A DNA stretch of 49,434 nt from a virus. The position numbers and the translations under genes are program-made. A model generated the notes under the pieces. It did no database searches. It was not told where the DNA came from and saw only the letters and a program-made list of their open reading frames with translations. The stretch covers positions 1 to 49,434 of IMG/VR virus record IMGVR_UViG_3300036860_000167; one strand, written 5' to 3'. Position 1 is the stretch's first letter. Each line of letters starts with the position of its first letter. Positions 35-49,434 of the stretch are shown here, in pieces.

Positions 35-43
35 GCGGCCAAG

Positions 44-1745: not shown

Positions 1746-1759
1746 CCGAAAGGCGCGCA

Positions 1760-5748: not shown

Positions 5749-5762
5749 CAGGAGGAGCACAC

Positions 5763-5969
5763 ATGGCCAAGCAGAGCGCGGGTCGTCCGATTCCGGCACT
5801 CCCGCCGGCGGTGCGCAACTCCAGGGGCAACCCGGACGGCAACCCGTCCCGCGAGGCGCCGCGTCCCGCGCCGATGGTGGATGGCAAGCCGGTCAGCCCG
5901 GCGGTCGCCCGGACCCGTGCTGGCGGCGCTGCCGCGCAGGGTCACGGCAACTCGGGGGGTGGCAAGTGA
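5763..5969 (+). CDS. Small Pro/Arg/Gly-rich protein of unknown function
   Basis: A 68-residue basic, probably disordered protein (PNLPPAV-type Pro stretches, Gly-rich C-terminus HGNSGGGK). AGGAGG at 5751-5756 sits at good distance from the ATG. The stop shares bases with the GTG of the next gene. Its place right behind the capsid gene suggests a head-associated role, but no family is recognised. Confidence 0.75.
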   Translation: MAKQSAGRPIPALPPAVRNSRGNPDGNPSREAPRPAPMVDGKPVSPAVARTRAGGAAAQGHGNSGGGK

Positions 5970-6184
5970 AGATCGTCATCCATGGCCCACTGGCCGGGTA
6001 CGGTCCCGACGGGACCATCCACTCGTGGGCGCCGGACACCGAGGTGGAGGTGGACGACAAGGATGCCAAGGCGGTCGCCTGGGCGAGGGGCTGGGGCGCC
6101 ACGCCCCACGCGACCCTCGTCGAGGATGCGCCGGCCAAGGAGCCAGCCAAGCCAACCACATCCGCAGCCAAGGCGACCAAGTAA
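5966..6184 (+). CDS. Small head-region protein
   Basis: 72 residues from a GTG that overlaps the preceding stop (GTGA). The N-terminus MKIVIHGPLAGYGPDGTIHSWAPD is compact and mixed strand/turn; the middle has DDKDAKAVAWARGWG; the tail is Lys/Ala/Pro-rich. Small proteins of this layout (a short beta domain followed by a K/A tail) are common just after actinophage capsid genes, but their function is not known to me. It is the last gene before the hairpin at 6195-6230. Confidence 0.75.
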   Translation: MKIVIHGPLAGYGPDGTIHSWAPDTEVEVDDKDAKAVAWARGWGATPHATLVEDAPAKEPAKPTTSAAKATK

Positions 6185-6194
6185 CCCAAGAGGT

Positions 6195-6230
6195 TGGGAG
6201 CCCCCGTCCCCTCCGGTGCGGGGGCTCCCA
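6195..6230 (+). terminator. Hairpin after the capsid unit
   Basis: A perfect 11-bp stem: TGGGAGCCCCC (6195-6205) pairs with GGGGGCTCCCA (6220-6230) around a 14-base loop. No T-run follows, as is common for hairpins in high-GC actinophages. It lies 10 bases after the last capsid-unit stop and 24 before the next gene, so it probably attenuates transcription or protects the 3' end of the capsid message. Confidence 0.75.
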
Positions 6231-6254
6231 CATATCCGGGAAAGAGGACCACCT

Positions 6255-6416
6255 ATGACGTTCCGACTCGGCCAGGACATTACCGAAGGCCAGCAGGTTG
6301 ATATCGCTGCGGGTATTGTCCTCCCTGCTGAGAATGGTCGCTGGATGATGGCGGAGAACGGCAACGCTGGCCAGCCGGTGCTGTTCATCGATTCGACCAT
6401 CCGGATCCTGCGCTGA
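6255..6416 (+). CDS. 53-residue protein, possibly head-associated
   Basis: ATG with AAAGAGG at 6241-6247. The product (MTFRLGQDITEGQQVDIAAG... FIDSTIRILR in outline) is short, acidic to neutral, with alternating beta-type residues and no membrane segment. The stop overlaps the glycosyltransferase ATG (TGATG). No family recognised; a decoration-type small beta protein is possible from position and size. Confidence 0.7.
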   Translation: MTFRLGQDITEGQQVDIAAGIVLPAENGRWMMAENGNAGQPVLFIDSTIRILR

Positions 6417-8353: not shown

Positions 8354-8772
8354 TGCGACGCATCCTCACCACCCTCGCCCTGGCCGCCACACTCACCCTC
8401 GGGGTAGCTGGCACTGCGCTGGCGGGCAGTCCCCACTTCGTTGACGGCACCCTCACCGCGACCCGCACCGGTGACACGCTCACCGTCAGCGGCAAAGAGG
8501 CGGGGTTGGGCGACGAGACGCAGATCACCGTCGAGGCGACGTCGACGGCGGCGTGTCTGAATCCGGGGCAGCAGTTCCCCCAGGCCGCGAACAAGGAATC
8601 GGTGACCGCCAGCGCCGTGGTGCCCGTGCAGAACGGGAAGGCGTACTTCTCCCTGGACCTGGTCGCGACGTTCCAGCCGTCCTGCTCCCCGCCAATGAGT
8701 GTGGTCTTCGGTGATGTCACGGTCACTGACACCACCAACGGCATCACGGCGACGATCCCTGGCACGTTCTGA
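8353..8772 (+). CDS. Secreted protein with cleavable signal peptide
   Basis: 139 residues. Start ATG 8353 overlaps the preceding stop, with GAAAGGAA before it. Residues 1-24 are a classic Sec signal: RR, hydrophobic core LTTLALAATLTLGVAG, cleavage after TALA. The mature part is a beta-rich domain (GTLTATRTGDTLTVSGKEAG in outline) with two cysteines (AACLNPG, PSCSPP) that could form a disulfide. It would leave the host cell, so it is more likely a lysogenic-conversion or surface protein than a virion part. Family unknown to me. Confidence 0.75.
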   Translation: MRRILTTLALAATLTLGVAGTALAGSPHFVDGTLTATRTGDTLTVSGKEAGLGDETQITVEATSTAACLNPGQQFPQAANKESVTASAVVPVQNGKAYFSLDLVATFQPSCSPPMSVVFGDVTVTDTTNGITATIPGTF

Positions 8773-8777
8773 GACCC

Positions 8778-9476
8778 GTGACGCCGTACTACGACGACGG
8801 GACCTGCACTATCTACTTGGGTGACTGCCGCGACGTGCTCCCCGAGTTGATCGCCGACGTGGTCATCACTGATCCGCCGTACGGGATCAATGACAGGCCA
8901 CTAGGTCCAGCCAAGGGCCGACGATTGCATTGGTCGCCAGATGGGCACCAAGTCTCGAACACCTGGCATCCAGCCTCGACCTGGGATGACGAGATCGACC
9001 CCGCTTGGCCGGCTCTGGTTTGCGTGACAGCTCCGGTGGTCGCTTGGTTCGGCCAGTGGCGTAAGCGGGAGGAAGTTGCTGCGGCGATGCCGTGGCCACT
9101 CCGAGCGGAAATCATCTGGGCTAAGGATCGCCACGTCGGCGCTCCCACGCCGCTTGCTCCTCGCGACGAGCGGATTTGGCTGTTCAGCGCGCAAGGGATC
9201 AAGCCGAGAACGTTCGAGACCACCGTTTGGGACGTTGCCGGGGTTCCTTCCTGGGCGCACAAGGACCACAAGAACGAGAAACCGATCTCGCTATTGTGTC
9301 GCCTCGCGGCATTGCTCACCGATCCTGGCCAACTGATCCTTGACCCGTTCATGGGTTCCGGCACCACGCTGCGCGCCGCGAAGGACCTCGGCCGCCGCGC
9401 GATCGGGATCGAGATCGAGGAACGCTACTGCGAGATCGCCGCCCGCCGGCTCGGCCAAGAAGTATTGGCCCTCTGA
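8778..9476 (+). CDS. DNA methyltransferase (N4-cytosine/N6-adenine, beta-class order)
   Basis: Transfers methyl from SAM to an exocyclic amino group in DNA. 232 residues. The catalytic motif DPPYG (32-36) lies N-terminal and the SAM-binding motif DPFMGSGTT (189-197) C-terminal, with EKPISLLCRLAALLTDPGQ between. No restriction endonuclease is adjacent, so protection of phage DNA from host restriction is the likely role. GTG start; six bases after the previous stop. An unusual position for such a gene, within the structural region. Confidence 0.92.
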   Translation: MTPYYDDGTCTIYLGDCRDVLPELIADVVITDPPYGINDRPLGPAKGRRLHWSPDGHQVSNTWHPASTWDDEIDPAWPALVCVTAPVVAWFGQWRKREEVAAAMPWPLRAEIIWAKDRHVGAPTPLAPRDERIWLFSAQGIKPRTFETTVWDVAGVPSWAHKDHKNEKPISLLCRLAALLTDPGQLILDPFMGSGTTLRAAKDLGRRAIGIEIEERYCEIAARRLGQEVLAL

Positions 9477-9514
9477 TCGTCACCTGCTGATTTCCACACG
9501 CAAAGGGGGCGCGT

Positions 9515-10879
9515 ATGCGTCGCCTTATTTTTGTGCTGCTGCTGGTCGCCGGGCTCGGGTTGGCGTTCGCCATCGCGGTCGCCCCCGCCGGGACCGGCTC
9601 GCTGGCTGCCCTGACCAAGCCGACCAAACGCACGACTACGACGGTGGCGGCGACCACGACCACGGCCGCCGCCACGACGACGACGCTGGCGGCAACGACC
9701 ACCACCGCAGCACCGACCACCACGATCGCGCCTACCACCACGGTGGCCGACACGACCACGACGACGGAGTTGCCGACCACCACGACCGAAGTCCCGACGA
9801 CGACTGAGCCGCCCACGACCACGACGGAGCCGCCGACCACGACCGGGGCGACCACGACCACGGTCGCGCCGACGACCACGACGACCGGCCCGCCACCGCC
9901 CCCGCCGTTGCGCTTCCCCCGACCCGCCAGCTATGCCACCGCGCCCATCTACTACGTCACTACCGCCTCGAACGTCGTCAATGTTCCAGCCGGCACTGAC
10001 GCCAACGTGAAGTGCGCCGACCCGGTCACCCATGTTCCAGCGATCATGCACAAGCGGCCGGTTATCAACGGCGGCCGGGACGTGTACGTGGTCGGCTGCG
10101 ACGTCGACGTCAACCAGACCTGGCCGAACCCCGACGACCAGAATGCTGTCGGGTTCGGTGGGCAGACCCGCCTGGTGTGGTTCGAGGGCGTCTTTGCGCA
10201 CGGCGACTTCATCAACGACGGGCTCAAGGGTTGTGCGGGAGCAGCACGTTGGGTCGCGCAGAACGACCGGATCGGCCCGCTGCACGGCTCGCAGTCCGGC
10301 TACCACTCCGATGTGTTCCAGCCTTACTGTGGGTTCACTGACCCAGCGCCAAGCGATCCGTCCATCGGTGGATTCGATATCGACAACGTCACCGGTATGG
10401 GCGAGTTCCAGTGCCTGATGGTCAAGTCGGACAGCTCGACCTACATGTGGAACGAGACCAACATCGGTCGGCTCGACTGCCATGACACCCAGGCCCCCGG
10501 CAGTGACACGACCGCGCGGCTGCTGAACCTCGTCACCAACGGCACCATCCGCGGGCCGATCCACTACAGCCACTTCGGCTCCGACGAGTTCTTCATCGAG
10601 CCAAGGCCCAACACCCTCACCGATCAGAACGCCGGCAACGTCGACCTGAAGAACTCGATCGCCCCGGCCGCATGCTTTGTGATCGCCGGCACTGTGGCGA
10701 GCCCGACGCAGGTCGCCACACCCATTTCACCTGCCGGGAGTTGCCTCCCATCCGACACGACGCTCGTGTCTGACGGTCATGTCAGGGAGATGCAGCAGCA
10801 GGAAGCCATCCCGAACACGGGCTGGTTCGAGTACGTCCCAGCCTCCGGGAACGTCGGGCTGGGCTACGTCCTGCCATAG
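9515..10879 (+). CDS. Secreted Thr-rich stalk protein with beta-helix-like domain
   Basis: 454 residues. AAAGGGGG precedes ATG 9515. Residues 1-30 are a signal peptide or anchor (RRLIFVLLLVAGLGLAFAIAV). Residues 40-124 are a low-complexity linker of TTT runs broken by A, V, P and E, followed by a poly-Pro run: a mucin-like stalk. The C-terminal 320 residues (from about 133) have repeating short strands (NGGRDVYVVGCDVDVNQ, RLVWFEGVFAHGD, ARWVAQNDRIG) suggestive of a right-handed beta-helix, with several cysteines. It is probably displayed or released outside the host and is a plausible O-glycosylation target for the enzyme at 6416. Function not known. Confidence 0.75.
   Translation: MRRLIFVLLLVAGLGLAFAIAVAPAGTGSLAALTKPTKRTTTTVAATTTTAAATTTTLAATTTTAAPTTTIAPTTTVADTTTTTELPTTTTEVPTTTEPPTTTTEPPTTTGATTTTVAPTTTTTGPPPPPPLRFPRPASYATAPIYYVTTASNVVNVPAGTDANVKCADPVTHVPAIMHKRPVINGGRDVYVVGCDVDVNQTWPNPDDQNAVGFGGQTRLVWFEGVFAHGDFINDGLKGCAGAARWVAQNDRIGPLHGSQSGYHSDVFQPYCGFTDPAPSDPSIGGFDIDNVTGMGEFQCLMVKSDSSTYMWNETNIGRLDCHDTQAPGSDTTARLLNLVTNGTIRGPIHYSHFGSDEFFIEPRPNTLTDQNAGNVDLKNSIAPAACFVIAGTVASPTQVATPISPAGSCLPSDTTLVSDGHVREMQQQEAIPNTGWFEYVPASGNVGLGYVLP
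9632..9886 (+). repeat. Thr-codon microsatellite encoding the stalk
   Basis: About 255 bases made mostly of ACC and ACG codons in runs of three to five, interspersed with GCC/GCG, CCG and GAG. It codes for residues 40-124 of the secreted protein and is the most repetitive stretch of the window, prone to length change. Confidence 0.8.
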
Positions 10880-10885
10880 CGTGGA

Positions 10886-10928
10886 GCCCTGGCGGGCGAC
10901 GCCGGTTGAGACCGCCGCCCGCCAGGGC
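10886..10928. terminator. Bidirectional hairpin between convergent genes
   Basis: A perfect 13-bp stem: GCCCTGGCGGGCG (10886-10898) with CGCCCGCCAGGGC (10916-10928), loop 17 bases. It lies between the rightward stalk-protein gene and the leftward gene ending at 10940, where a terminator serving both strands is expected. Confidence 0.8.
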
Positions 10929-10939
10929 CGCCTTGGAGG

Positions 10940-11185
10940 CTACGGGGTGATGATGGCGGGGACCAGCTCATGCTGGGTGGTCCCGGTGGGGCAGTTCCCC
11001 TGGCTCTTGTCGAGCGCGTAGATCGTCTTGTACGGCTGCGGCTGGTTGGCGGTGCAGACGTAGAACGTGTGGGACGGGTCGGGGCTGGAGGGGGTCGCGT
11101 CGGGGATGTCGGCCAGGGCTGTCCCGCCGAGGGCGAGGATCGCGCCGGCCAGCACGCCCAGCAGTGGGCCGCGTAGCTTCCGCAC
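10940..11185 (-). CDS. Antisense secreted small protein
   Basis: 81 residues from a GTG at 11185, with AAGGA 8 bases upstream. A signal peptide (MRKLRGPLLGVLAGAILALGG, cleavage after TALA, residue 25) precedes a 56-residue mature domain with two cysteines (FYVCTANQ, GNCPTGTT). The mature part resembles the short secreted actinobacterial domain with Cys-x(15-20)-Cys and a Thr/Gln-rich end, but I cannot name a family. It is a lone leftward gene inside the rightward structural block, flanked by the hairpin at 10886, which suggests an independently expressed cargo gene. Confidence 0.75.
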   Translation of the reverse strand: MRKLRGPLLGVLAGAILALGGTALADIPDATPSSPDPSHTFYVCTANQPQPYKTIYALDKSQGNCPTGTTQHELVPAIITP

Positions 11186-11244
11186 GTCAGTGTCCTTCCT
11201 GTCGAGGATTGATCGGTTCCGTCGTACCCCGGGAGGGGTTGGGT

Positions 11245-13338
11245 ATGCCGCTGTCGCTTGACACGATCCAGGTGCAGCCGTCCAACTCCGGCAGCTTCAC
11301 CGGAGCGTCGGGTAGCGCGACCCTGCCCAATGGCACTGCTGCCGGGTCGACGGTGCTGATCGTCGTCTCCACGAACTCGGTGCTAATGAGCTCGCCCGGG
11401 TTCACTGACGATTCCGGGTCGCAGAGCGGCAACTCGCGGGTGTTCATCCTCGGCAAGTCGAACGTGGGCGCCGGGGAGACCTCGTGGGCGCTGACCGCCA
11501 GCGCTGGCACGTTCAGCCGCTGGACCGTCTATGAGCTGGCCGGCCTGGACCCTGTCGCTCGGGTCGATGTGAAGAAGACCTCCACCACCGCCACCACGTC
11601 TGGGACCAGCGCGTCGACGGGGACGCTGCCCCGCTCCACCGCCTACGACGTGCTGGTGGTGGCCGCCCATGCCAGCTACAACTCGGTCTCGACGGCCCCG
11701 ACGACCTTCTTCGCCCACACCAACGGGTTCACGGAGGTGGATGAGGGGTCAGCCGACGATGGGGTGAGCAAGGCGGTCAACCTGTCGGTGGCGATGAAAA
11801 CCACCGAGGTGCTGGACACGTTCGAGTGTGCCGCGACCGCCTCGGCCACGTTGACGGGGACCAGCTCGGCCAGCGCGACGATCGTGTGCTACGCCGCGGA
11901 GGGTGCCAAGCGGGAGCCGAACATTGCGCACTTCTGGGGGTTCTTCCCAGGCGTGTCGTCGACACCGGCGGGCCTTGGCGTCGGCAACGCCAGCTCCCGC
12001 TATTTCGAGACGGTGGTCGGTGTCCCGGCGATCACCGCTGACGGGTTGCAGCTGACCGGGGCGGCGTCGGCGCAGAATGTGGCTGCCGCGTCGATCACCA
12101 CCGCGTTGCAGGCCGCGAAGGCGCATGTGGGCTGGATCCGGTTCCGGCTCGACTCGCTGTCGGGGGACCTGGAACTGGGGACGCTGACCGACAGCGGCGG
12201 TGCCAGCACCGTCGTCCGCTACGTGTCGGCGAGCCAGAAGATCGGGGTGAAGGTCGGCACCGGCACCGAGGTTGTGTCGGATGCCACGGTGACGACCGGG
12301 GTGTTGTACACCCTTGACGTGCGGGCGATGGGGACCACGACCGCACGGACGGTCGACTGGCAGCTGGACTATGGTGCCGGCCCGGTCGTCCAGACCCAGG
12401 CGACCTTCACTGCCGGGGCGATCCTCGGGTCGCTGGTCCCGGTGCTTGGCTGGTCGGCCGCGCAGACCGGGACGGTCACCTACGCGAGACCTGCGCTGTT
12501 CTCGATTATCGCGGGGCACTACCCGCTCGGGGCAAGCGACTGGACGAGTGCGTTCCTGAAGGTCGACCCGGCCGGGACCCTCACTATCTCGGGAACCAGC
12601 ACCAACTTCGCGCTGATGGCCAGCAACGCCACCGGTGGGGCGTGGAACGCGACCACCGCCCGCGACTCGATCGACGAGGTCCCCCCAACGGTCGGCGCAA
12701 GCGCTGACGGGTTCTGCCAGGTCACCGCCGCCGTCACCGACTACGTTGAGATCCCGATGGAGACCTGGCAGGCCGCCCCCACCGGCAATATCCGGGCGGT
12801 GCGGATGTGCGTGTGCGGGTGGGCCGCCGCCGCGACCGCCGCGACGATCGGGTTCCGCGGCTGGGAAGGATCAGCCGAGACGACCCTCCTCGCCGCCACC
12901 GACACCAACTTCGACAACACCTCCACCCCCGCGTGGGTATGCCAGATGTACCGGCCCGCGAACGGGTGGACACAGGCAAAACTGGATGCGCTTGCGTTCC
13001 GGGTCGGGTTCTCCGACGACGCCACCCCCGACATCGGCATCCACGCGATCTACGCGGAAGTCGCCGTGCAGACCACCACTACCCAAGCCATGTTCGGGAC
13101 GAGTGGGGATGTGACGGTGAGCGCGGCCTATGACGTGGTGACCGGTGGGGTCAGCGGCCTAGCCACCGCCACCCCGGCGGAGCGGGGCATCACACTGCAT
13201 TACGAGATCAACACCAGCCCGACGGATGTGGCCGTGGGCGCCGCCTCGTCCGACACACGAACCATCGACGCGCCGGACCATCCGACCACCAACTACGTGG
13301 CGATCTACCCCGACCCTGAGCCGGGCTCGGTCACCTAG
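11245..13338 (+). CDS. Large Ala/Thr/Gly-rich virion-type protein
   Basis: 697 residues; start ATG 11245 follows GGGAGG at good spacing, and no signal peptide is seen. Composition (Ala, Thr, Ser, Gly, Val) and short alternating strands suggest a string of beta domains: an N-terminal one (MPLSLDTIQVQPSNSGSFTG in outline, ending at ATIVCYAAEG, residue 240), a lectin/LamG-like middle with VGWIRFRLDSLSGDLELG and TLDVRAM, and a C-terminal part with WQLDYGAG and FRVGFSDD. Likely a surface appendage, decoration or adhesin. Its location before the connectors is odd for a tail fibre. The stop overlaps that of the antisense gene at 13335. Confidence 0.75.
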   Translation: MPLSLDTIQVQPSNSGSFTGASGSATLPNGTAAGSTVLIVVSTNSVLMSSPGFTDDSGSQSGNSRVFILGKSNVGAGETSWALTASAGTFSRWTVYELAGLDPVARVDVKKTSTTATTSGTSASTGTLPRSTAYDVLVVAAHASYNSVSTAPTTFFAHTNGFTEVDEGSADDGVSKAVNLSVAMKTTEVLDTFECAATASATLTGTSSASATIVCYAAEGAKREPNIAHFWGFFPGVSSTPAGLGVGNASSRYFETVVGVPAITADGLQLTGAASAQNVAAASITTALQAAKAHVGWIRFRLDSLSGDLELGTLTDSGGASTVVRYVSASQKIGVKVGTGTEVVSDATVTTGVLYTLDVRAMGTTTARTVDWQLDYGAGPVVQTQATFTAGAILGSLVPVLGWSAAQTGTVTYARPALFSIIAGHYPLGASDWTSAFLKVDPAGTLTISGTSTNFALMASNATGGAWNATTARDSIDEVPPTVGASADGFCQVTAAVTDYVEIPMETWQAAPTGNIRAVRMCVCGWAAAATAATIGFRGWEGSAETTLLAATDTNFDNTSTPAWVCQMYRPANGWTQAKLDALAFRVGFSDDATPDIGIHAIYAEVAVQTTTTQAMFGTSGDVTVSAAYDVVTGGVSGLATATPAERGITLHYEINTSPTDVAVGAASSDTRTIDAPDHPTTNYVAIYPDPEPGSVT

Positions 13339-14717: not shown

Positions 14718-16370
14718 GTGCCGCTGCCCGGCTGGCGGCGGATCCCGCACCGCCAGATCGCCTGGCGGCCGCAGCCGGCCGTCGTCACCCCGCCGGTCAC
14801 GGTCGCCAACACGCTGGAAGGTGGCACCGACGGGGTCACCGTCACCACCGGCAACTCCGGCGGCGCCAGCGGCGACATCTTCCAGTCCGTCCAGACCGGC
14901 ACCGGCGCGACCAACGCGTTCTCGGCCACCCACACCCGCGGCACGATGGCGGTCATGTTCGCCACCGGCGGGACCGCAGCAACCCCAGCCGACGGGTGGA
15001 CAACCGCCATCGGCACCCAGACCGAGATCTGGTACCGCTGCTACATCTACTTCACCGCCAACCCGGCCGCCGCCCACCGCATTCTGCACGTCCACTCCGG
15101 CGCGTCGCAGCGATGCAGCGTCGAGCTGGAGACCACCGGGTTGCTGCAGATGCTCGACTCGTCCGGCAGCACGCTGCCCGCAGACCGCACCACCACTGCG
15201 ATCGCGTTGAACGCGTGGAACCGGGTCGAATTCCACGCCATCCTGTCGGCCACGGTCGGCCAATACGAGCTCCGCCTCTACAAGACCAACCCTGACGCGG
15301 CCATCGCCAGCTACGACGAGCAGGTCTCCTCGGCGGCCAACAAGAACCTCGGTGGGGCTGGGGACACCTACAGGTTCGGGGTTACCGGGAGCCCCGTCGC
15401 CAATGTGGTGGCGTGGTGGGCTGACGACCTATCGGTGTCCACGGCAGGGTGGATCGGCCCGAGCGCTGGCGGCCCGGCGACCATCACCGCCGACGCGACA
15501 GTGGCCGCCACCGCCACGATCGCCGCAGCCGGGCTCGCCATCACCGCAGGCGCAGGGACGATCCCCGCCACCGCCACGATCGCGGCCGCCGGGACCGTCA
15601 TCCAGCCGGCCACCGGCACCATCAGCGCAACGGCGACCATCGCCGCAGCAGCCACCGTCATCCAACCTGCGGTCGCGACGATCCCGGCGACCGGCACCAT
15701 CGCGGCCGCTGGCATCGTCATCCAACCCGCGACGGGCACCATCACAGCCACGGCGACCATCGCTGCGGATGGGACGGTCGTCCCGGCTGGCCCGGCAACG
15801 ATCCTCGCGGTCGGCTCAATTCCAGCTACCGCAACGATCAGCGCCGCCGGGACCGTCATCCAGCCGGCCACCGCCAATATCGCGGCGACCGCAACGATCG
15901 CCGCCGCCGGTACCCAGATCCAACCCGGCACCGCCACGGTCAGCGCCGCCGCAACGATCCAGGCGGCCGGGCTGCGAATCGCGGTTGCCACTGGGCAGAT
16001 CACCGCGACTGGAACGATCGCTGGGACCGGCCTGCGGATCGTCCTGGCCACCGCGACGATCAGCGCAACTGCGACCATCGTTGGCTCGCCTGTTGAGGTC
16101 CAACAGGCCATCGGCACTATCCCGGCGACCGGCACCATCGCCGCGACCGGGGTGACGTTCAAGTACGTCCCTGCGGTCGCGACGATCCCCGCCACCGCCA
16201 CCGTCGCGGCGGTCGGCAGTGTCGAGGTGCCCCCACCCGTCCCACCCCCCCGCTGGGTCGAAGGCGCGACCTCGGCCACCACCCTGGTCGACGCAGTGTC
16301 CAGCAGCAGCGGGCAGATCGAAGGGGCCATGGCCGGAGCGGGGCTCGTCGAAGGATCAAGCAGCCTCTGA
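14718..16370 (+). CDS. LamG-like protein with about twelve 20-residue repeats
   Basis: 550 residues from GTG 14718. Residues 30-245 look like a concanavalin/LamG-type sheet domain (TEIWYRCYIYFTANP, RILHVHSG, WNRVEFHAILSA, ELRLYKTN, WWADDLSV). Residues 252-504 are about twelve copies of a 20-residue unit with consensus GTIPATATIAAAGTVIQPAT, beta-solenoid-like in pattern. A short C-terminal part repeats EGA/VEG (WVEGATSA, QIEGAMAG, LVEGSSS). Carbohydrate binding plus a repetitive shaft would fit a virion fibre or a capsid-attached adhesin. Confidence 0.8.
   Translation: MPLPGWRRIPHRQIAWRPQPAVVTPPVTVANTLEGGTDGVTVTTGNSGGASGDIFQSVQTGTGATNAFSATHTRGTMAVMFATGGTAATPADGWTTAIGTQTEIWYRCYIYFTANPAAAHRILHVHSGASQRCSVELETTGLLQMLDSSGSTLPADRTTTAIALNAWNRVEFHAILSATVGQYELRLYKTNPDAAIASYDEQVSSAANKNLGGAGDTYRFGVTGSPVANVVAWWADDLSVSTAGWIGPSAGGPATITADATVAATATIAAAGLAITAGAGTIPATATIAAAGTVIQPATGTISATATIAAAATVIQPAVATIPATGTIAAAGIVIQPATGTITATATIAADGTVVPAGPATILAVGSIPATATISAAGTVIQPATANIAATATIAAAGTQIQPGTATVSAAATIQAAGLRIAVATGQITATGTIAGTGLRIVLATATISATATIVGSPVEVQQAIGTIPATGTIAATGVTFKYVPAVATIPATATVAAVGSVEVPPPVPPPRWVEGATSATTLVDAVSSSSGQIEGAMAGAGLVEGSSSL
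15471..16229 (+). repeat. Tandem 60-bp coding repeats
   Basis: About twelve degenerate units of around 60 bp encode the 20-residue repeat. The most conserved stretches are the ACSGCSACSATC-type codons for ATATI and GTCATCCA for VIQ; units in the middle (15590-15770 and 15840-15920) are closest to each other. Divergence rises toward the 3' end. Confidence 0.85.
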
Positions 16371-39374: not shown

Positions 39375-39550
39375 CGCCGTTCATCCGGATCACCCGGGGC
39401 TTGAGTTCCCGTTGGTTCGTCCATCGCTGGCACGCCGCCCGGGAGTTTCACGCATGGCACGACCGCCGTGCGCGTGTCGGCGCCACGATCAGCGTCGGTT
39501 CCTGGCGGGTCAACATGGCCATCCTCCGCACGAAAGCGCGGCCCCGATGA
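39371..39550 (+). CDS. 59-residue basic protein
   Basis: MTPFIRITRGLSSRWFVHRW, HAAREFHAWHDRRARVGATI: strongly basic with many His/Trp/Arg residues; could bind nucleic acid. Overlaps both neighbours by 4 bases. Confidence 0.5.
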   Translation: MTPFIRITRGLSSRWFVHRWHAAREFHAWHDRRARVGATISVGSWRVNMAILRTKARPR

Positions 39551-40542
39551 GCCACCCCACCTTCCTCTCACTGTTCGCCGGCATCGGCGGCCTCGACCTC
39601 GGCCTCGAACGCGCAGGGTGGTCGTGCGTCGGCCAGGTCGAGATCGACCCGTACTGCCAGCGGGTGCTCGCCCGGCACTGGCCGGAGGTGCCTCGCTGGG
39701 GCGACATCAAGGAGCTGCATCCGGATGAGCTGCCCCGAGCCGACCTCATCGCCGGAGGTTTTCCCTGCCAGCCGTTCAGCAGCGCCGGCCATCGGGGAGG
39801 CATTGCCGACGAACGGTGGCTCTGGCCAAAGTTCGCGCGCATCGTTCGCGCACTACGACCCACCTACGTCCTCATGGAGAACGTCCCAGGGCTCCTTGCT
39901 GAGCACGGAGGCATGGGGATCATCCTTGGCGACCTGGCCGAGAGCGGGTATGACGCGGAATGGGACTGCATACCTGCTGCGGCCGTCGGTGCCCCTCACC
40001 TCCGTGATCGGGTCTGGTTGGTTGCCTACCCCAACGGTTCATCCCGGACCGCAGACGAACGGCAACACCCGGCGGTGGAACGGCCTGAACAGCCTGCAGG
40101 TGATGGCCAAGGCCGGCTGGTGGCCCACCCCGACGGTCAAGGGCAACTACAACCGCCGCGGCGCTTCGGCCAAGAGTGGGGACGGCCTTGCCACTGCCGT
40201 TGGTGGGACGTTGAACCCGCCGTGGCTCGAGTGGGTCATGGGATTTCCCGCCGGGTGGACAGAGAGCGCACCCTCGGCAACGCCGTCGTCCCCCAGGTCG
40301 CCGAGCACATCGGCCGGCTGATCCTCCAACAGATTCCCGGGGCGGCCGCGAGGCCGGTGTCCGTCCGGCCCACCACCAGTCCGAACGCGGAGGGCGTTCC
40401 TGGCGAGTCGGCGGCCGCCCCGGTTCACCAGTCCAAGACGGAGGTAGCAGAGCGTCCGCGGAGAGTGCGGCCGGCTCTCTTCTTGTCGGAGAGGCCTACC
40501 TCCGTCTTGGACGTCACCCACACCACCCGAGGTACCCCATGA
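39547..40542 (+). CDS. C5-cytosine DNA methyltransferase
   Basis: 331 residues from ATG 39547. Ordered motifs: I FAGIGGLDLGL (10-20), II VEIDPYC, IV GGFPCQPFS with catalytic C74, VI ENVPG (111-115), VIII HLRDRVWLVAYP (151-162), X TLGNAVVPQVAEHIGRLI (242-259), with WWDVEPAVARVGHGISRRVD in the variable/target region. No cognate endonuclease is adjacent; it probably protects phage DNA from restriction. The 70-residue tail after motif X is not part of the enzyme fold and contains a 17-bp inverted repeat. The central and 3' part also has an open second frame with methyltransferase-like text. Confidence 0.92.
   Translation: MSHPTFLSLFAGIGGLDLGLERAGWSCVGQVEIDPYCQRVLARHWPEVPRWGDIKELHPDELPRADLIAGGFPCQPFSSAGHRGGIADERWLWPKFARIVRALRPTYVLMENVPGLLAEHGGMGIILGDLAESGYDAEWDCIPAAAVGAPHLRDRVWLVAYPNGSSRTADERQHPAVERPEQPAGDGQGRLVAHPDGQGQLQPPRRFGQEWGRPCHCRWWDVEPAVARVGHGISRRVDRERTLGNAVVPQVAEHIGRLILQQIPGAAARPVSVRPTTSPNAEGVPGESAAAPVHQSKTEVAERPRRVRPALFLSERPTSVLDVTHTTRGTP
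40431..40512. repeat. Perfect 17-bp inverted repeat around an inner hairpin
   Basis: GTCCAAGACGGAGGTAG (40431-40447) and CTACCTCCGTCTTGGAC (40496-40512) are exact complements 48 bases apart. Inside, AGAGC (40450-40454) can pair with GCTCT (40474-40478). It lies in the 3' tail of the cytosine methyltransferase gene, 30 bases before its stop. Confidence 0.9.
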
Positions 40543-43103: not shown

Positions 43104-43327
43104 TGGGCGAGACCCCACCCGTCCGCTCCATCTGCTCCCACTGCAATGGGACCGGAGTGGCTGGCCGGAAGCTACGCAGTCGCGGTGAATGCCCAGCGCG
43201 CTGGTGGGACATGACCCGCGAGCCGTTTGAGGAGTGGACCTGCGGCCGGCCGCTCGCCCCCGGCGCGCGTCACTGCCTCGAGCATGAACGGCAGATCGCC
43301 TTCCTCGCCGAACAGAGGAGCCCCTGA
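43103..43327 (+). CDS. 74-residue zinc-binding protein
   Basis: AAGGAG before the ATG. RSICSHCNGTGVAG, GECPARWWDM, WTCGRPLAPGARHCLEHERQ: CxxC pairs and CxxH, probably two knuckles. Coupled by TGATG to the next. Confidence 0.65.
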   Translation: MGETPPVRSICSHCNGTGVAGRKLRSRGECPARWWDMTREPFEEWTCGRPLAPGARHCLEHERQIAFLAEQRSP

Positions 43328-43506
43328 TGACCGCCGACCCGATCCCCGCCGTCATCTACGGCACCTGCATCCATTGCGCGCGGCTCCGCCCCCTCCAAGC
43401 CGACGGGGTACTCGCGATCCACTACCTACGGCACAAGACCAGCGGACGGGACCGACGGCGCCGCTGCCCAGGCAGCCGCCACCTTCCCCGAGAGGACACG
43501 CGATGA
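43327..43506 (+). CDS. 59-residue basic zinc-type peptide
   Basis: IYGTCIHCARLRPLQADG then RRRRCPGSRHLPRED. CxxC plus C and H could hold zinc. Ends in an ATGA overlap with the recombinase gene. Confidence 0.55.
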   Translation: MTADPIPAVIYGTCIHCARLRPLQADGVLAIHYLRHKTSGRDRRRRCPGSRHLPREDTR

Positions 43507-44528
43507 CTGAACTCACGATCCACCGGTCCAACAGCGACACTGTTAGCTTCGAGCCGATCTCAGGGGAACGGAAAGCGCTCCTGAAAAGGACGATCGCCAA
43601 GGACCTCACCGACGACGAGATGGACCTCTTCGTCGCCGTCTGTAATCGCCGCCGCCTCGACCCGTTCGTGAAGCAGATCCACGCGGTCAAACGGCGGCAG
43701 TGGAACTCGAAACTGAACGACGGCAAGGGCGGCTACGAAGAGGTCATGGTCATCCAGACCGGCATCGACGGGTACCGGCTCGTCGCCGACCGGACCCACC
43801 AACGCGACGGGGTCGAAGGGCCTTGGTGGTGCGACGACTCCGGCGAATGGAGGGACGTGTGGCTCGCCGACGGTCACCCCTCCGCCGCGAAGATCATCGT
43901 CTACCGCAAAGGCCACACCCGCGGGTACGTCGGGATCGCGCACTGGGCCGAGTACGTCCAGACCTACAAGGACAAGCAGGGCAACTGGGTGCCGGTGCAG
44001 ATGTGGCAGAGCATGCCCGCCGGGCAGCTCGCCAAATGCGCGGAGGCACTGGCATCACGCAAAGCGTTCCCGGAGGAGCTCGGTGGGATCTACACCGATG
44101 AGGAGATGGGCCAGGCCGAGGAGGGTCCCATCGCCGGCGCAGTGACGCCGACGCCTGCGCCGGCGATGGCCGCCACCGGCAGTGTGCCAACCATCCAGCA
44201 GATCCAGCGGCTTCGCAGCAAGGATGAGGCCACTGACCTCGTCAGAGCGCACCGCGGATTTAGCGCGTACGTGTCTCGAGCCATCACAGAGATGCATGGC
44301 ATCGGCCCGGAAGTCGACTGGTGGCCACGCGCAAGCGTCCGTGAACGCCGGGAGGTCCTTGAGTACGCGGTCGAGCTCGCCGACCAGCAGGAACATGAGA
44401 CCGTCGGAGCGGGGCCCTCCCCCGACCCCGCTCCGGCACCCACGTCCGATCCGGCCTCTGGTTCTGTAAGGGGAAGGCAGAACCATGCCGGGTCGGACGA
44501 ACAAGGCGGTGACGCCGATGGTGGCTGA
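43503..44528 (+). CDS. recT: RecT-family single-strand annealing recombinase
   Basis: 341 residues. The RecT/Bet core is clear: LLKRTIAKDLTDDEMDLFVA, RRLDPFVKQIHAVKRRQWNS, EEVMVIQTGIDGYRLVADRT, IAHWAEYVQTYKDKQGNWVP, MWQSMPAGQLAKCAEALASR KAFPEELGGIYTDEEM. The C-terminal third is Pro/Ala-rich with a helical segment (YVSRAITEMHGIGPEVDWWP). Anneals single strands during phage recombination and replication. No exonuclease partner is obvious nearby. The end overlaps the next gene by 44 bases. Confidence 0.92.
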   Translation: MTELTIHRSNSDTVSFEPISGERKALLKRTIAKDLTDDEMDLFVAVCNRRRLDPFVKQIHAVKRRQWNSKLNDGKGGYEEVMVIQTGIDGYRLVADRTHQRDGVEGPWWCDDSGEWRDVWLADGHPSAAKIIVYRKGHTRGYVGIAHWAEYVQTYKDKQGNWVPVQMWQSMPAGQLAKCAEALASRKAFPEELGGIYTDEEMGQAEEGPIAGAVTPTPAPAMAATGSVPTIQQIQRLRSKDEATDLVRAHRGFSAYVSRAITEMHGIGPEVDWWPRASVRERREVLEYAVELADQQEHETVGAGPSPDPAPAPTSDPASGSVRGRQNHAGSDEQGGDADGG

Positions 44529-45171
44529 GCTGTGCAAGTGCGGCCACGACCTGGCCGCGCATACCGGCAGCGGCGTCGCCGGCATCCCCTGCAACGTGTG
44601 CGGGGTCAACCGCCGAGGCTGGCCCACCGGGTACTGCATGGGCTGGGACCCACCGCGGCGTCTCATCGGCTACCACACCGCCGACGGCAGGGCCTACCAG
44701 CCCGAGGACGTTGCACTCGTCTACGAGGCCGACGATGCCGATGTGACCGGGCCGGCCGGGGCGACCACCCCCACGGAACCCCCGGCCGGCCCCCACCCAT
44801 TCGTTGGCCGGCAAGACCGATGGTGCGAACAGTGCCACCGGCCGGACCGCGACCCGATCCATGCCCCGGCCGGCCCCCCCGACCTCACCCACGCCATCCA
44901 CGCCGCTGCCCAGGCGCTTTATGCCGGGAGCCATTGGAAGCTGAACTCGGACGACGCCGCCCGGATCGCGGTGCAGGCAGCGTGGCCTCAGATGGAACGT
45001 GACCTGCGCGTCGCACAAACCCAGATCGACCAGCTCCGCGCCTTCGTCGACGCGGCCCGGGAATTCGTCCACGCGGAGGAACTCGACAGTTCTTGGTCAG
45101 CGCCAGCGTGGGCATCACTCAAGGTCGCGCTGGCCGCCCTCGACCAGGCGGCACCGGAGCAGCACCCATGA
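44485..45171 (+). CDS. 228-residue zinc-type protein with a duplicated C-terminal block
   Basis: AGGGGAAGG precedes ATG 44485 (inside recT); ATG 44518 would give a start exactly at the zinc domain. LCKCGHDLAAHTGSGVAGIP CNVCG and WCEQCHRPDRDPIH are two zinc-type sites. The C-terminus (QTQIDQLRAFVDAAREFVHA EELDSSW) repeats the motif of the protein at 41691. Probably nucleic-acid- or protein-binding; unknown. Confidence 0.65.
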   Translation: MPGRTNKAVTPMVAELCKCGHDLAAHTGSGVAGIPCNVCGVNRRGWPTGYCMGWDPPRRLIGYHTADGRAYQPEDVALVYEADDADVTGPAGATTPTEPPAGPHPFVGRQDRWCEQCHRPDRDPIHAPAGPPDLTHAIHAAAQALYAGSHWKLNSDDAARIAVQAAWPQMERDLRVAQTQIDQLRAFVDAAREFVHAEELDSSWSAPAWASLKVALAALDQAAPEQHP

Positions 45172-45368
45172 CCACCCTCCAGCGCAAGGCGTGTCCCCGC
45201 TGCCAACGGGTCGTCGCCTGGCGGGTCATCCGCGGTCCCCGCGTGAATCGTGGACGACCCATCCCGGCACTGTCCCAACCCGTCCCACACAAGCAGCCAG
45301 CAATGGATGACGACGGCGTAACCGACGAGCCGGCATGGTGCATCCCAACCAAGGCAGAGCGGTCATGA
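45168..45368 (+). CDS. 66-residue zinc-type protein
   Basis: TTLQRKACPRCQRVVAWRVI starts with a CxxC; a later Cys (AWCIPTKAERS) and His could complete the site. The last bases overlap the next gene (ATGA). Confidence 0.55.
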   Translation: MTTLQRKACPRCQRVVAWRVIRGPRVNRGRPIPALSQPVPHKQPAMDDDGVTDEPAWCIPTKAERS

Positions 45369-45385
45369 CCGCCACGCCCAACCCC
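45365..45385 (+). repeat. 21-bp gene-start repeat family (five copies)
   Basis: The first 21 bases of the genes at 45365, 45829, 46059, 46361 and 46585, coding MTATPNP, are identical but for one base in the copy at 46361 (Ala to Ser). Copies at 45829 and 46585 agree for 27 bases. The sequence before the ATG is not shared. Confidence 0.95.
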
Positions 45386-45832
45386 CAGGGTGACCTCCGC
45401 ATTGTCCCCGTCAGCTTCCGGGAAGCCCAAGCGTTCATCGCCGCGTGGCATCGTCACCACAAGCCACCCCGCGGCATGAAGTTCTGCCTTGGCGCCGCCG
45501 ATGGTGATGTCCTCGTCGGCGTCGCAACCGTCGGCCGTCCAGTTGCCCGCGCCTTCGACAACGGCAAAACGCTGGAGGTCAACCGGACCTGCGCCGACGG
45601 CACCCCACACGTGAACTCGATGCTGTATGGCGCCTGCTGGCGTGCCGCGAAAGCGCTCGGCTATGAGCGGCTCATCACCTACACCCAAGAAGGCGAATCC
45701 GGAGCGTCATTGCGTGCAGCTGGATGGCGGATTATTGCGGAACTGCCAGCCCGCGGCCCGTGGAAATACGCCAGCCAACCCAGAGACCCATCCACCGGCG
45801 GAATCCAGCGCACGCTCTGGGAGGCACCATGA
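45365..45832 (+). CDS. XF1762-like GNAT-type acetyltransferase; first MTATPNP gene
   Basis: 155 residues. After the MTATPNP leader comes a domain I recognise from phages and bacteria: IVPVSFREAQAFIAAWHRHH, GVATVGRPVARAFDNGKTLE, VNRTCADGTPHVNSMLYGAC, WRAAKALGYERLITYTQEGE, SGASLRAAGWRII. The GNAT-like fold is known for this family; substrate is not. The leader MTATPNPQG is not part of the family and appears added. Confidence 0.85.
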   Translation: MTATPNPQGDLRIVPVSFREAQAFIAAWHRHHKPPRGMKFCLGAADGDVLVGVATVGRPVARAFDNGKTLEVNRTCADGTPHVNSMLYGACWRAAKALGYERLITYTQEGESGASLRAAGWRIIAELPARGPWKYASQPRDPSTGGIQRTLWEAP

Positions 45833-46062
45833 CCGCCACGCCCAACCCCAAGATCACCCGGGCAACCGACGAACGTGACTACTTCCAGGCGGCCATGCAC
45901 CGCATGCGGGAGGCGTTCGCTGGCGTGCGGCAGGGCCGGTTCACTTGGGAGCAGGGCAACGACGAGTTCTTCGACGGCTACCAGCAGGCAAAACAAGTCT
46001 TCGCCGCGGTCCTGCTGCAACGCGATGTGCATGCCGCCAAAGGCAAGGATGCGAAGCCATGA
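45829..46062 (+). CDS. 77-residue helical protein; second MTATPNP gene
   Basis: After the leader, ITRATDERDYFQAAMHRMRE, AFAGVRQGRFTWEQGNDEFF, DGYQQAKQVFAAVLLQRDVH: helical, aromatic-rich. GGGAGG precedes the ATG. Unknown function. Confidence 0.65.
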   Translation: MTATPNPKITRATDERDYFQAAMHRMREAFAGVRQGRFTWEQGNDEFFDGYQQAKQVFAAVLLQRDVHAAKGKDAKP

Positions 46063-46364
46063 CCGCCACGCCCAACCCCCAGCGGCCACTCTGGCACCAG
46101 CGATGCCGACTACCACTGGCCGACGGGTTCGACGCTGCCGTCATGATCTGCCCCAGCCACGAATGGGTCATCGAAGACCGCACCCCACCAGGCCGCCAGC
46201 AAGGCGACCCCTGGTACATCGTCTGCGTGTGCATGAACTGCCACGCCGCCCGCTGCGGCCACACGGGCGACCCGAACCCGTGCAAGCTCGCCCGCCACCA
46301 TGTGCTCGAGTGGCACCACTACGCCGACGGGGCGATGGAACCAATCGGCGGTGTCGTCACATGA
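46059..46364 (+). CDS. 101-residue Cys/His-rich protein; third MTATPNP gene
   Basis: After the leader: LWHQRCRLPLADGFDAAVMI, CPSHEWVIEDRTPP, IVCVCMNCHAARCGHTGDPN PCKLARHHVLEWHHYADG. At least seven Cys and several His in pairs, likely two zinc sites. Unknown function. Confidence 0.65.
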   Translation: MTATPNPQRPLWHQRCRLPLADGFDAAVMICPSHEWVIEDRTPPGRQQGDPWYIVCVCMNCHAARCGHTGDPNPCKLARHHVLEWHHYADGAMEPIGGVVT

Positions 46365-46588
46365 CCTCCACGCCCAACCCCCAGGTGCAGCGGGACACTG
46401 TCTACACCGCCGCAGCGATGGCCATGCTGCCCTGGGCCGACGACGCGGAACTCGACGTGTTCGAGTGGCGCCCCTGCCAGCAATGCCCACACCCAGGCTT
46501 CGCGTGCCCATGCTCCGGCCGGCCCTGGCCAAGCGCCGCAGTCCGTGCAGCCATCGACGCAGCACTCGCCACGCGAGACACACCATGA
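46361..46588 (+). CDS. 75-residue Cys-rich protein; fourth copy (MTSTPNP)
   Basis: After the leader: VQRDTVYTAAAMAMLPWADD, AELDVFEWRPCQQCPHPGFA CPCSGRPWP and a helical end. CxxC...CxC suggests one zinc site. There is no Shine-Dalgarno sequence before this ATG, so it relies on coupling. Confidence 0.65.
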   Translation: MTSTPNPQVQRDTVYTAAAMAMLPWADDAELDVFEWRPCQQCPHPGFACPCSGRPWPSAAVRAAIDAALATRDTP

Positions 46589-46740
46589 CCGCCACGCCCA
46601 ACCCCAAGATCGAGCAGGCCCCCCTCTGCCCCTGCCACGACTGGCCCATGATTGAGCGCACCGGCCACCTCGGATGGGTCTGTTTGTGGTGCGGCACCAC
46701 CATCGAACAGGACGGAAGGTCGGGACGGTGGCGCCCATGA
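46585..46740 (+). CDS. 51-residue zinc-ribbon-like protein; fifth MTATPNP gene
   Basis: After the leader: EQAPLCPCHDWPMIERTGHL, GWVCLWCGTTIEQDGRS. CPC/H and CLWC make a small zinc ribbon. ATGA overlap with the MT-A70 gene. Confidence 0.65.
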   Translation: MTATPNPKIEQAPLCPCHDWPMIERTGHLGWVCLWCGTTIEQDGRSGRWRP

Positions 46741-47477
46741 CCTGGGATGGGCTTTCGCCGCCGTACGCGACCATCGTCGCCGACCCACCATGGCCATACG
46801 ACGCCAACCCGCTCGGCTACCAGCGTAGCCACGGGATCAGGAAATTCATCCCCTACTCCGAGATGCCCGTCGACCACATCAAGGCGATGCCCGTCGCGGA
46901 CCTCGCAACTCCGGCAGCACATCTCTACCTCTGGACTACACAGCGTTTCCTCTGGACTGCCAGGGACGTTGCCGACGCTTGGGGGTTCAAGGTTGGCCCG
47001 GTCCTCATCTGGTGTAAGGAGCCGATGGGGCTGGGCGGCGGACCAGCTTTCACGCCGACCACCGAGTTCGCGTTGTTCTGTCGCGCACGGATGGGGCCGC
47101 TCATCAAGGCCGCTCGAGAGATTGCCGGATTGGGCCGAGGTGACCTGCACCGCCTGCTACGGGACGACAAACCGACGGGCATCGTGTACCGCTGGGAAGA
47201 GGATGCTTGCCTGCCGACCCCGCTGGATTGGGCAAAGCTTCGCAGCGTCCTACCAAGCCTTGCCGAACTGCCAGACCTTGCCGACAACCCGCGCCGTACG
47301 GATACGACGTGGTGGAAGTGGAAACGTGGCGGGCACTCTGCGAAACCGCCTGCCTTCATCGACCTCGTTGAGCGAGTCTCACCGTTCCCCTATGTGGAGC
47401 TGTTCGCCCGGCAGCCCCGCCTCGGGTGGGACTCCTGGGGTCGTGGGTTCGAGCACCTCGGGAAGGTCGCCCCATGA
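46737..47477 (+). CDS. MT-A70-family N6-adenine DNA methyltransferase with inserted helical domain
   Basis: 246 residues. The MT-A70 pattern: YATIVADPPWPYD with catalytic DPPW (16-19), IPYSEMPVDHIKAMPVADLA, LYLWTTQRFLWTARDVADAW GFK, VLIWCKEPMGLGGGPAF, TEFALFC, then SAKPPAFIDLVERVSP, YVELFARQPRLGWDSWG. Between TEFALFC and KWKRGGHSAKP (about residues 118-190) is an extra block (ARMGPLIKAAREIAGLGRGD, WEEDACLPTPLDWAKLRSVL) that looks like a DNA-binding helical domain and also occurs in other phage adenine methylases. Likely protects DNA from restriction or marks it. Confidence 0.9.
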   Translation: MTWDGLSPPYATIVADPPWPYDANPLGYQRSHGIRKFIPYSEMPVDHIKAMPVADLATPAAHLYLWTTQRFLWTARDVADAWGFKVGPVLIWCKEPMGLGGGPAFTPTTEFALFCRARMGPLIKAAREIAGLGRGDLHRLLRDDKPTGIVYRWEEDACLPTPLDWAKLRSVLPSLAELPDLADNPRRTDTTWWKWKRGGHSAKPPAFIDLVERVSPFPYVELFARQPRLGWDSWGRGFEHLGKVAP

Positions 47478-47659: not shown

Positions 47660-48645
47660 TGCCGCGGAACTACTTCAAGCTCGACCTGTACTTCTTTGAG
47701 CACCCCAAGGCCGTTGACCTCTCCCACGCGGCCACGGTGCTCTTCTTGGCGTCCATCGCCTACGCCAACCGCCGGGAGACGGACGGGTTCATCGCCCGTC
47801 CTGTCGTCCGCAAGCTCGTTGACATTGAGGACGCCTACGACCAGGATCCGCCGACCCATGATGAGCTCGCGGCTTGCCTTGTGAAGGCGAATCTGTGGGA
47901 GCCGGTTGAGGGTGGCTGGCAGATCCACGACTTCGCCGACCACAACGACACCAGCGATGAGCGGGCCGCCAAGCGCGCTGACGACGCGGCCCGTAAACGC
48001 AAGCAGCGTCATCGTGAGTCCACTTCCGGCCAGGTCACACCGGGACAGGATGTGACGCCTGCCGATGTCACACCGAGTCACAACGGACGTGTCACAGCGT
48101 CACACGCTATAGAAGTAGAAGTAGAAGTAGAAGTAACAGAAGCAGAGAAGAGAAATATCAACACCGTCGTCGAGCAAGCTCGACCGGTCGGCGTCCACCC
48201 CGCCGCTGTCCAGCAGGTCTTCGACGCCTGGCAGCACTCGACCGGCAAGCACAAGGCCCGCCTAGACGACAAGCGGCGCCGCAAGATCCAGCAGGCTCTC
48301 AAGACCTACCCGCTCGAGGACATCCTCGATGCCGTCCAGGGCTGGCGTAATTCACCCCACCACTGCGGCCAGAACGACCGCGGCACCGTCTACAACGACC
48401 TTGAGCTACTACTCCGCGACGCGCAGCACATCGAGGCGTTCCGTGACCTCGCGCGGGATGGTCCCGGAGTCCCCATCGGCAAACGCACCCAGCAGCTTCT
48501 CAACCACCAGCAGGGCATGCATGCCGTCGGCATGGCGAAGGGGGTGATCGGCAATGGCAATGGCCTGGCCCCAATGGGAGCACCTGGTCGCCCGGATCAA
48601 CGCGAGCTGGCCCGACCAGCAGATCGAACCGCTGACAGCAGGTGA
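47659..48645 (+). CDS. Replication initiator (O-like/DnaD-type) with internal origin
   Basis: 328 residues from ATG 47659 (GTG 47656 also possible). The N-terminal winged-helix-type domain (NYFKLDLYFFEHPKAVDLSH, ATVLFLASIAYANRRETDGF, VVRKLVDIEDAYD, ACLVKANLWEPVEGGWQIHD FADHN) is typical of phage replisome organisers. Basic linker AAKRADDAARKRKQRHRES, then a linker whose DNA holds GTCACA iterons and an AT-rich EVEVEVEVTEAEKRN stretch. The C-terminal domain (VFDAWQHSTGKHKARLDDKR RRKIQQALKTYP, LEDILDAVQGW, NDLELLLRDAQHIEAF) is the conserved initiator C-terminus. It would open the origin and recruit the helicase. Confidence 0.88.
   Translation: MPRNYFKLDLYFFEHPKAVDLSHAATVLFLASIAYANRRETDGFIARPVVRKLVDIEDAYDQDPPTHDELAACLVKANLWEPVEGGWQIHDFADHNDTSDERAAKRADDAARKRKQRHRESTSGQVTPGQDVTPADVTPSHNGRVTASHAIEVEVEVEVTEAEKRNINTVVEQARPVGVHPAAVQQVFDAWQHSTGKHKARLDDKRRRKIQQALKTYPLEDILDAVQGWRNSPHHCGQNDRGTVYNDLELLLRDAQHIEAFRDLARDGPGVPIGKRTQQLLNHQQGMHAVGMAKGVIGNGNGLAPMGAPGRPDQRELARPADRTADSR
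48034..48166. other. Candidate replication origin inside the initiator gene
   Basis: Six GTCACA sites at 48034, 48051 (inverted), 48067, 48077, 48091 and 48099 in 71 bases, followed by an AT-rich purine-strand stretch 48107-48166 containing four exact GAAGTA hexamers (48112-48135). Iterons next to an easily melted region within the initiator gene is the lambda O arrangement. Confidence 0.65.
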
Positions 48646-48958
48646 GTGGTACGACGACCTCGCCCATCTGGACCCCGAGCTGCTCGGCCAGGCCGTCCGG
48701 AACCTCCGCCGCGAACATGACTACCGCCCGGCCCTGGCCGCGCTCCTCCGCGAGGTCGGCCAGCTCCGCGCCAACCTGCCCCAGCCATCCAGCAGCCGAC
48801 CCCGCGTCGACCACGACACATTCCGGCAGATCCTCATGTTCGACCCCGCCGCGCAGAACACCCCCGCCGGCGTCAACCTCAGCGACCACACCTGCATCCC
48901 CAACCAGACCCGCGCCGAGGAATGGCTCAAGTTCCAGGTCGAGCAGGCCGTCCCGTGA
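48554..48958 (+). CDS. Probable helicase loader
   Basis: 134 residues, overlapping the initiator gene by 92 bases. WPQWEHLVARINASWPDQQI, EPLTAGEWYDDLAHLDPELL, GQAVRNLRREHDYRPALAAL LREV resembles loaders that pair with DnaB-type helicases (the G39P/G40P-inhibitor type N-terminus: short helices, W-x-x-L-x-D-x-D). The C-terminal half is Pro-rich with FRQILMFDP. Position after the initiator supports the role. No helicase is in the window, so the host DnaB is probably recruited. Confidence 0.65.
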   Translation: MAMAWPQWEHLVARINASWPDQQIEPLTAGEWYDDLAHLDPELLGQAVRNLRREHDYRPALAALLREVGQLRANLPQPSSSRPRVDHDTFRQILMFDPAAQNTPAGVNLSDHTCIPNQTRAEEWLKFQVEQAVP

Positions 48959-49008
48959 CCTTCGTCGTCGCCAAGGTCGACCACCCACCCACCAAGGAGA
49001 CCCCATGA
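48955..49008 (+). CDS. 17-residue ORF
   Basis: GTG start coding MTFVVAKVDHPPTKETP, with GTGA and ATGA overlaps at its ends. May serve only to carry ribosomes across; AAGGAG in its 3' part is the next gene's ribosome binding site. Confidence 0.25.
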   Translation: MTFVVAKVDHPPTKETP

Positions 49009-49130
49009 GCGAGTGGTATCCAGGTACCGACATATTCAGCGTCACGCCACCTGAACCGATCGACACGCCGCTCGAGGAAGTGATGGCGTCCACGATCCCA
49101 CCGGAGCTTCAAGAGCCCACCGATGGCTGA
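49005..49130 (+). CDS. 41-residue acidic peptide
   Basis: AAGGAG 6 bases before the ATG. MSEWYPGTDIFSVTPPEPID and TPLEEVMASTIPPELQEPTD: acidic, Pro-rich. Function unknown. Confidence 0.5.
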   Translation: MSEWYPGTDIFSVTPPEPIDTPLEEVMASTIPPELQEPTDG

Positions 49131-49167
49131 CCGTCCCATGACCGTCCCGGAGGTCCTGACCCCATGA
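49123..49167 (+). CDS. 14-residue ORF
   Basis: MADRPMTVPEVLTP, starting inside the previous gene and ending in an ATGA overlap. CGGAGG within it is the next gene's ribosome binding site. Translation uncertain. Confidence 0.2.
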   Translation: MADRPMTVPEVLTP

Positions 49168-49346
49168 GCAACATCGCCCGGAAACCCAACATCGAGATCC
49201 GCCGGAAGGTCGGCTCCGGCTATTACCGGACCTACGGGCACCTGTACTGGCGACCCTTCATCGTCGTCGCGTTTGGTCGGGTCCTCGTCGGCCGGAAGCG
49301 GCTGGCACGGTCATGGGCCACCCCCGACCGGCGGGAGACCCCATGA
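49164..49346 (+). CDS. 60-residue basic protein
   Basis: MSNIARKPNIEIRRKVGSGY YRTYGHLYWRPFIVVAFGRV then LVGRKRLARSWATPDRR: strongly basic, aromatic, beta-type. Possibly nucleic-acid-binding. ATGA overlap with the last gene. Confidence 0.6.
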   Translation: MSNIARKPNIEIRRKVGSGYYRTYGHLYWRPFIVVAFGRVLVGRKRLARSWATPDRRETP

Positions 49347-49434
49347 GCATCGACGACCGGGAACGCTGCCCGACTTGCGGTCAGCTGCTACCGGTCACCC
49401 ACTCGGGCACCCGCAACCGTGAAGTCGAGTACAA
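49343..49434 (+). CDS. Small CPTCG-motif protein running off the right edge
   Basis: MSIDDRERCPTCGQLLPVTH SGTRNREVEY, incomplete at the window end. In a circular molecule it continues in frame at base 1 (KPSGLCVIEKF) to the stop at 32-34, giving 41 residues and a possible third cysteine. GGGAGA precedes the ATG. Confidence 0.6.
   Translation, partial: MSIDDRERCPTCGQLLPVTHSGTRNREVEY

Follow-up and report, generated by a model that had tools for sequence, protein, structure and literature searches.

The SAS of cluster K mycobacteriophages is a 13-bp motif (GGGATAGGAGCCC) that lies 3-7 bp before the start codon and contains the ribosome-binding core AGGAG (PMC3203893), and similar upstream start motifs (SAS/ESAS) are found in cluster EF Microbacterium phages (PMC7302621). 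In T4, a short N-terminal capsid-targeting sequence is carried by the internal proteins, which are highly diverse and some of which are anti-restriction proteins (PMC3012670). In T4-type phages, PeSL (promoter early stem-loop) cassettes are short repeats found between accessory genes and are reported, in work cited in PMC4503421, to mediate gene shuffling. No literature on common N-termini of unrelated phage genes was found among open-licence papers.

Here we analysed a virus record of 49,434 bases with 67% GC (IMGVR_UViG_3300036860_000167; this whole stretch is referred to as the window). Five adjoining ORFs, starting at 45365, 45829, 46059, 46361 and 46585, open with ATGACC[G/T]CCACGCCCAACCCC[C/A]AG, encoding the peptide MT[A/S]TPNP[Q/K] (the leader), and the bodies behind the five shared starts differ. 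The array and its neighbours are as follows.

43503..44528, + strand: RecT single-strand annealing protein, 0.8 kb upstream of the array (Pfam PF03837, E 8.6e-27; PHROG 2780, E 8.2e-60)
45168..45368, + strand: 66-aa ORF preceding the array, ATGA-coupled, without leader
45365..45388, + strand: leader copy 1, MTATPNPQ
45365..45832, + strand: ORF A, 155 aa, leader plus Mom-like (XF1762 family) DNA-modification protein (NCBIfam NF045478, PHROG 1384, fold match)
45829..45852, + strand: leader copy 2, MTATPNPK
45829..46062, + strand: ORF B, 77 aa, relatives not found (best codon score among six frames)
46059..46082, + strand: leader copy 3, MTATPNPQ
46059..46364, + strand: ORF C, 101 aa, Cys/His-rich by sequence (CPSHEW, CVCMNCH), relatives not found
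46361..46384, + strand: leader copy 4, MTSTPNPQ, one base changed
46361..46588, + strand: ORF D, 75 aa, Cys-rich by sequence (CQQCPHPGFACPC), relatives not found
46585..46608, + strand: leader copy 5, MTATPNPK
46585..46740, + strand: ORF E, 51 aa, CPCH...CLWC motif by sequence, relatives not found
46737..47477, + strand: ORF F, MT-A70-type DNA methyltransferase, ATGA-coupled to ORF E, without leader (Pfam PF05063, E 2e-16; PHROG 359, E 2.9e-30)

A preliminary description of this DNA had reported five consecutive genes with the same 21-bp start, and we recovered this start at all five positions. The 21 bp are identical in four of the five copies; the exception, at 46361, has the single differing base noted earlier, a non-silent change of G to T that turns Ala3 into Ser. 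At leader position 22 the base is C (Gln) or A (Lys), positions 23-24 are AG in 5/5 copies, and the copies at 45829 and 46585 (ORFs B and E) have 27 bp in common (...AAGATC). Likeness among the copies begins at the ATG and is over after 24-27 bases. Upstream of the starts it is at background level (4-10 of 18 bases), in agreement with the earlier statement that the upstream sequences differ. All copies are coding, have a common reading frame and orientation, and sit at gene boundaries. No further copy was observed on either strand of the 49,434-base window, nor was the leader observed on the structural genes of the phage. None of 100 shuffled windows contained a match to the motif, which rules out chance as the origin of the repeat. 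An assembly artefact, the other concern raised at the outset, is unlikely because two positions vary among the copies and none of the ORFs is interrupted between them. The next-best true start in the window after the five copies belongs to a small ORF before recT (43327-43506); it reads ATGACCGCCGACCCGATCCCC (MTADPIP), is like the leader at 16 of 21 bases and is possibly a decayed copy, or a chance likeness.

The five leader ORFs are arranged head-to-tail with zero intergenic space. To the preliminary description we add that each leader start forms the second half of a 4-bp ATGA overlap with the preceding stop. The array is part of a same-strand gene run in which recT (43503-44528) and two small ORFs precede it and the MT-A70-type methyltransferase gene (46737-47477) follows. 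Most starts of this run are ATGA overlaps, with or without the leader, and the leaderless neighbours at 43503, 45168, 46737 and 47474 have the same overlap. Frame and overlap define the coding status of ORFs B-E, together with the codon score for B and D, and this status is weaker for C and E than for B and D.

The nearest annotated relatives of the terminase are mostly from actinophages (~35% identity) and the phage also encodes a head maturation protease, a portal and a major head protein; the record represents an uncultured, actinophage-like bacterial virus. Contig IMGVR_UViG_3300036854_000026 (L119/L122) is 99.98% identical over window positions 1-12079 and 48008-49434, and L122 joins the window end to the window start via 1,397 bases absent from the window. 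The genome is therefore ~50.8 kb, circular or permuted, and the array lies ~5 kb before the terminase gene. L122 ends at window position 48008 and lacks the array region, so it gives no confirmation of the array. Three separate DNA methyltransferase-like genes (8778-9476, 39547-40542 and 46737-47477) and the Mom-like gene are present in this one phage. Coding repeats were also seen at 15486-16223 (60-bp tandem repeats inside ORF 14718-16370) and at 9633-9901 (Thr-rich and of low complexity, inside ORF 9515-10879).

ORF A matched NCBIfam model NF045478 (E 3.6e-61; score 205 with a cutoff of 50 bits) and PHROG 1384 (E 7e-41), and its score against Pfam PF25680 (27 bits) was just below the cutoff of 27.1. 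The best PDB fold match of its structural model was Mom of phage Mu (8bv8; Foldseek, E 7e-09). By these family models and the modelled fold, ORF A is a member of the XF1762/Mom-like DNA-modification family. Mom-like proteins are linked to escape from restriction, and in prophages of Mycobacterium abscessus a gene of this Mom-like kind is likewise found among chained small ORFs together with DNA methylases. The match to NF045478 starts only at residue 13 of ORF A, and the leader was found upstream of the conserved core in none of the 32 viral relatives inspected, most of which have a possible start codon only a few residues from the core. In the AlphaFold prediction, built on a 28-row alignment, residues 1-10 are coil (mean pLDDT 62) and most of the core is at or above 90. 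On the evidence of the family model, the 32 relatives and the predicted coil, the leader is an addition outside the ORF A protein family. The alternative named in the preliminary description, that the leader would prove to be a family trait of homologous proteins, is thereby rejected for ORF A.

No relatives of ORFs B-E were found in viral contigs or phage records, nor of B and C in plasmid records. The five proteins had been described as unrelated, which in the strict sense is not certain. Most pairs of bodies are not alike; the exception is a weak common CPxHxW...RT patch with Cys/His pairs in C (46146-46184) and E (46624-46662), equalled in score by 2 of 500 shuffles. Judging from these motifs, ORF C may bind zinc, ORF E may be a zinc ribbon and the two are possibly zinc-ribbon relatives.

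The leader was not found in a second phage. Its DNA gave no exact match in IMG/VR viral contigs, close kin possibly excepted, and the exact DNA search of 84,980 genomes returned six isolated, chance-like matches, most of them in short or implausible frames. The preliminary description had proposed looking for MTATPNP starts in related phages; this yielded 42 peptide-level matches, all isolated, and no locus with two. In 115 comparison loci (1.0 Mb), a set of at least three ORFs with a common start was seen in a single instance, where locus L041 has a collagen-like repeat. No second multi-copy case was observed in IMG/VR, in the 84,980 genomes by exact DNA or in the 1.0 Mb of comparison loci. 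Relatives were found via the RecT, methyltransferase, Mom-like and replication-type proteins, none of them with a comparable shared-start array.

Given the codon usage of the phage, the probability that the copies would agree at all silent positions is ~1e-7, and two of the codons used in the leader, ACG (0.31) and CCC (0.30), are not the commonest for their amino acids. This silent-site identity rejects convergence on one peptide and shows that the leader was copied, or has been conserved, as nucleotide sequence. Such identity is predicted by recent copying, by homogenisation or by a function at the RNA or DNA level; it is not predicted by a protein signal alone.

We tentatively favour, while stopping short of calling it probable, that recombination has spread the leader, as a start cassette, through the ATGA-chained operon that holds recT. 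The ATG and the six or seven codons after it (21-24 bp) would have been copied as DNA between neighbouring small genes. Each copy ends one ORF, begins the next in frame and would also supply a stretch of homology, so that recombination between copies could remove, duplicate or swap whole ORFs without breaking the frame; the RecT-type annealing protein, whose gene lies just upstream, might for instance mediate this. In this way the joint may give small accessory genes a place to insert next to a DNA methyltransferase gene. The leader itself, G-poor, lightly structured as RNA and probably disordered as protein, would be tolerated or even favoured, starting translation of the following gene and leaving the downstream fold alone. 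Consistent with this, the leader lies outside the one protein family in which this could be assessed, is identical at silent sites, begins at the ATGA and is confined to five consecutive ORFs, and recT is in the same gene run. Of the three readings offered in the preliminary description (a translation-initiation cassette, an N-terminal signal and a recombination tag), the last fits this anatomy best. However, no relative with different genes behind the leader was found among the sequences searched and exchange itself was not observed; recent tandem copying without later shuffling would look identical. A homology of 21-24 bp is also short for homologous recombination. Moreover, copying by recombination only might leave ragged left edges, and the sharp edge at the ATG in 5/5 copies is equally expected from a purely translational or protein-level function.

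That edge is one of the points in favour of a translation element, in which G-poor, weakly folded first codons would aid ribosome restart at the ATGA overlaps of a 67% GC operon and selection at the RNA level would keep the copies identical. Codons 2-8 of the leader genes contain 2-3 G, whereas 30 other starts average 5.9, and at 46361 and 46585 there are weak Shine-Dalgarno matches of 3 bases. Over the region -25 to +40, the mean predicted folding energy is -13.9 compared with -18.2 kcal/mol (Mann-Whitney P 0.04), a small difference drawn from five starts that are not independent of each other. The local unpaired probability is not clearly above that of other starts, ATGA-coupled genes without the leader exist in the same operon, and a folding benefit needs no identical sequence. 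We consider this explanation rather unlikely. A site for a nucleic-acid-binding factor, be it an operator, a stoperator-like site or a small-RNA target at gene starts through which one factor controls five genes, would likewise account for a short, asymmetric repeat in a single orientation at gene boundaries, and repeated motifs linked to gene starts, with no assigned role, have been described in actinophages (PMC3203893, PMC7302621). Yet all copies are coding and in the same frame, with none in non-coding sequence or elsewhere in the window, the array region has no Rfam match, and one transcript normally needs only one such site, which makes this reading improbable.

A signal at the protein level is unlikely, and marginally more doubtful than a translational role. 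MTATPNP would then act as an N-terminal tag sending the five proteins to one place, for example the virion, by analogy with the T4 capsid-targeting sequence. In ORF A the leader is modelled as coil outside the fold, one of the bearers is Mom-like and so of a kind linked to restriction escape, and the phage encodes a head maturation protease. The T4 internal proteins, too, have only the targeting sequence in common and are otherwise highly diverse (PMC3012670). A protein signal does not, however, require identity at silent sites; the genes lie in an early-type recT/methyltransferase region and not in the head region, none of the structural genes of the phage has the tag, and no cleavage-site motif was recognised by eye. 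Should the tag explanation prove correct, it would represent a new targeting signal common to a Mom-like protein and four small proteins. Far less credible is an origin of the five ORFs by ancient tandem duplication of a single gene with the leader, after which the bodies diverged and the leader persisted. The weak Cys/His patch common to C and E is compatible with such an origin, but the other body pairs are not alike, and ORF A is modelled with a Mom fold and has relatives in its family that lack the leader. Had divergence been strong enough to erase the bodies, silent positions would also have changed unless there were constraint or homogenisation at the nucleotide level.

Returning to the recombination-spread start cassette, it is an open question how small accessory genes enter tightly packed phage operons without disrupting them, and a short translated joint would be a simple answer. 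It is conceivable, if doubtful, that coding recombination joints of this kind are a feature of phage accessory-gene arrays, with one translated start cassette, joined to an ATGA overlap, repeated on every gene and with whole genes added, lost or swapped by annealing while frame, stop and start are kept.

Similar to SAS/ESAS, the leader is a short, highly conserved repeat at the starts of unrelated, mostly non-structural actinophage genes. The contrast with the cluster K SAS drawn in the preliminary description was correct: that motif precedes the start codon by 3-7 bp (PMC3203893), whereas the leader has the ATG as its first codon, is translated and has no conserved upstream sequence. Nor does the leader repeat (ATGACCGCCACGCCCAACCCC), from which AGGAG is absent, resemble the 13-bp GGGATAGGAGCCC-like consensus with its AGGAG core. 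In contrast to PeSL, which are promoter/stem-loop elements and non-coding, the leader is coding and its genes overlap by 4 bp. The leader thus lacks the defining features of both SAS and PeSL. With the T4 capsid-targeting sequence it has in common a shared N-terminal peptide on five proteins with mostly unlike bodies; it differs in that its genes are in an early-type region and its identity is at the DNA level. The decisive feature of the T4 sequence is packaging of its bearers into the virion, where the head protease removes the leader; the present phage does encode a head maturation protease. The leader is therefore nearest to PeSL in its proposed effect and nearest to the capsid-targeting sequence in its form.
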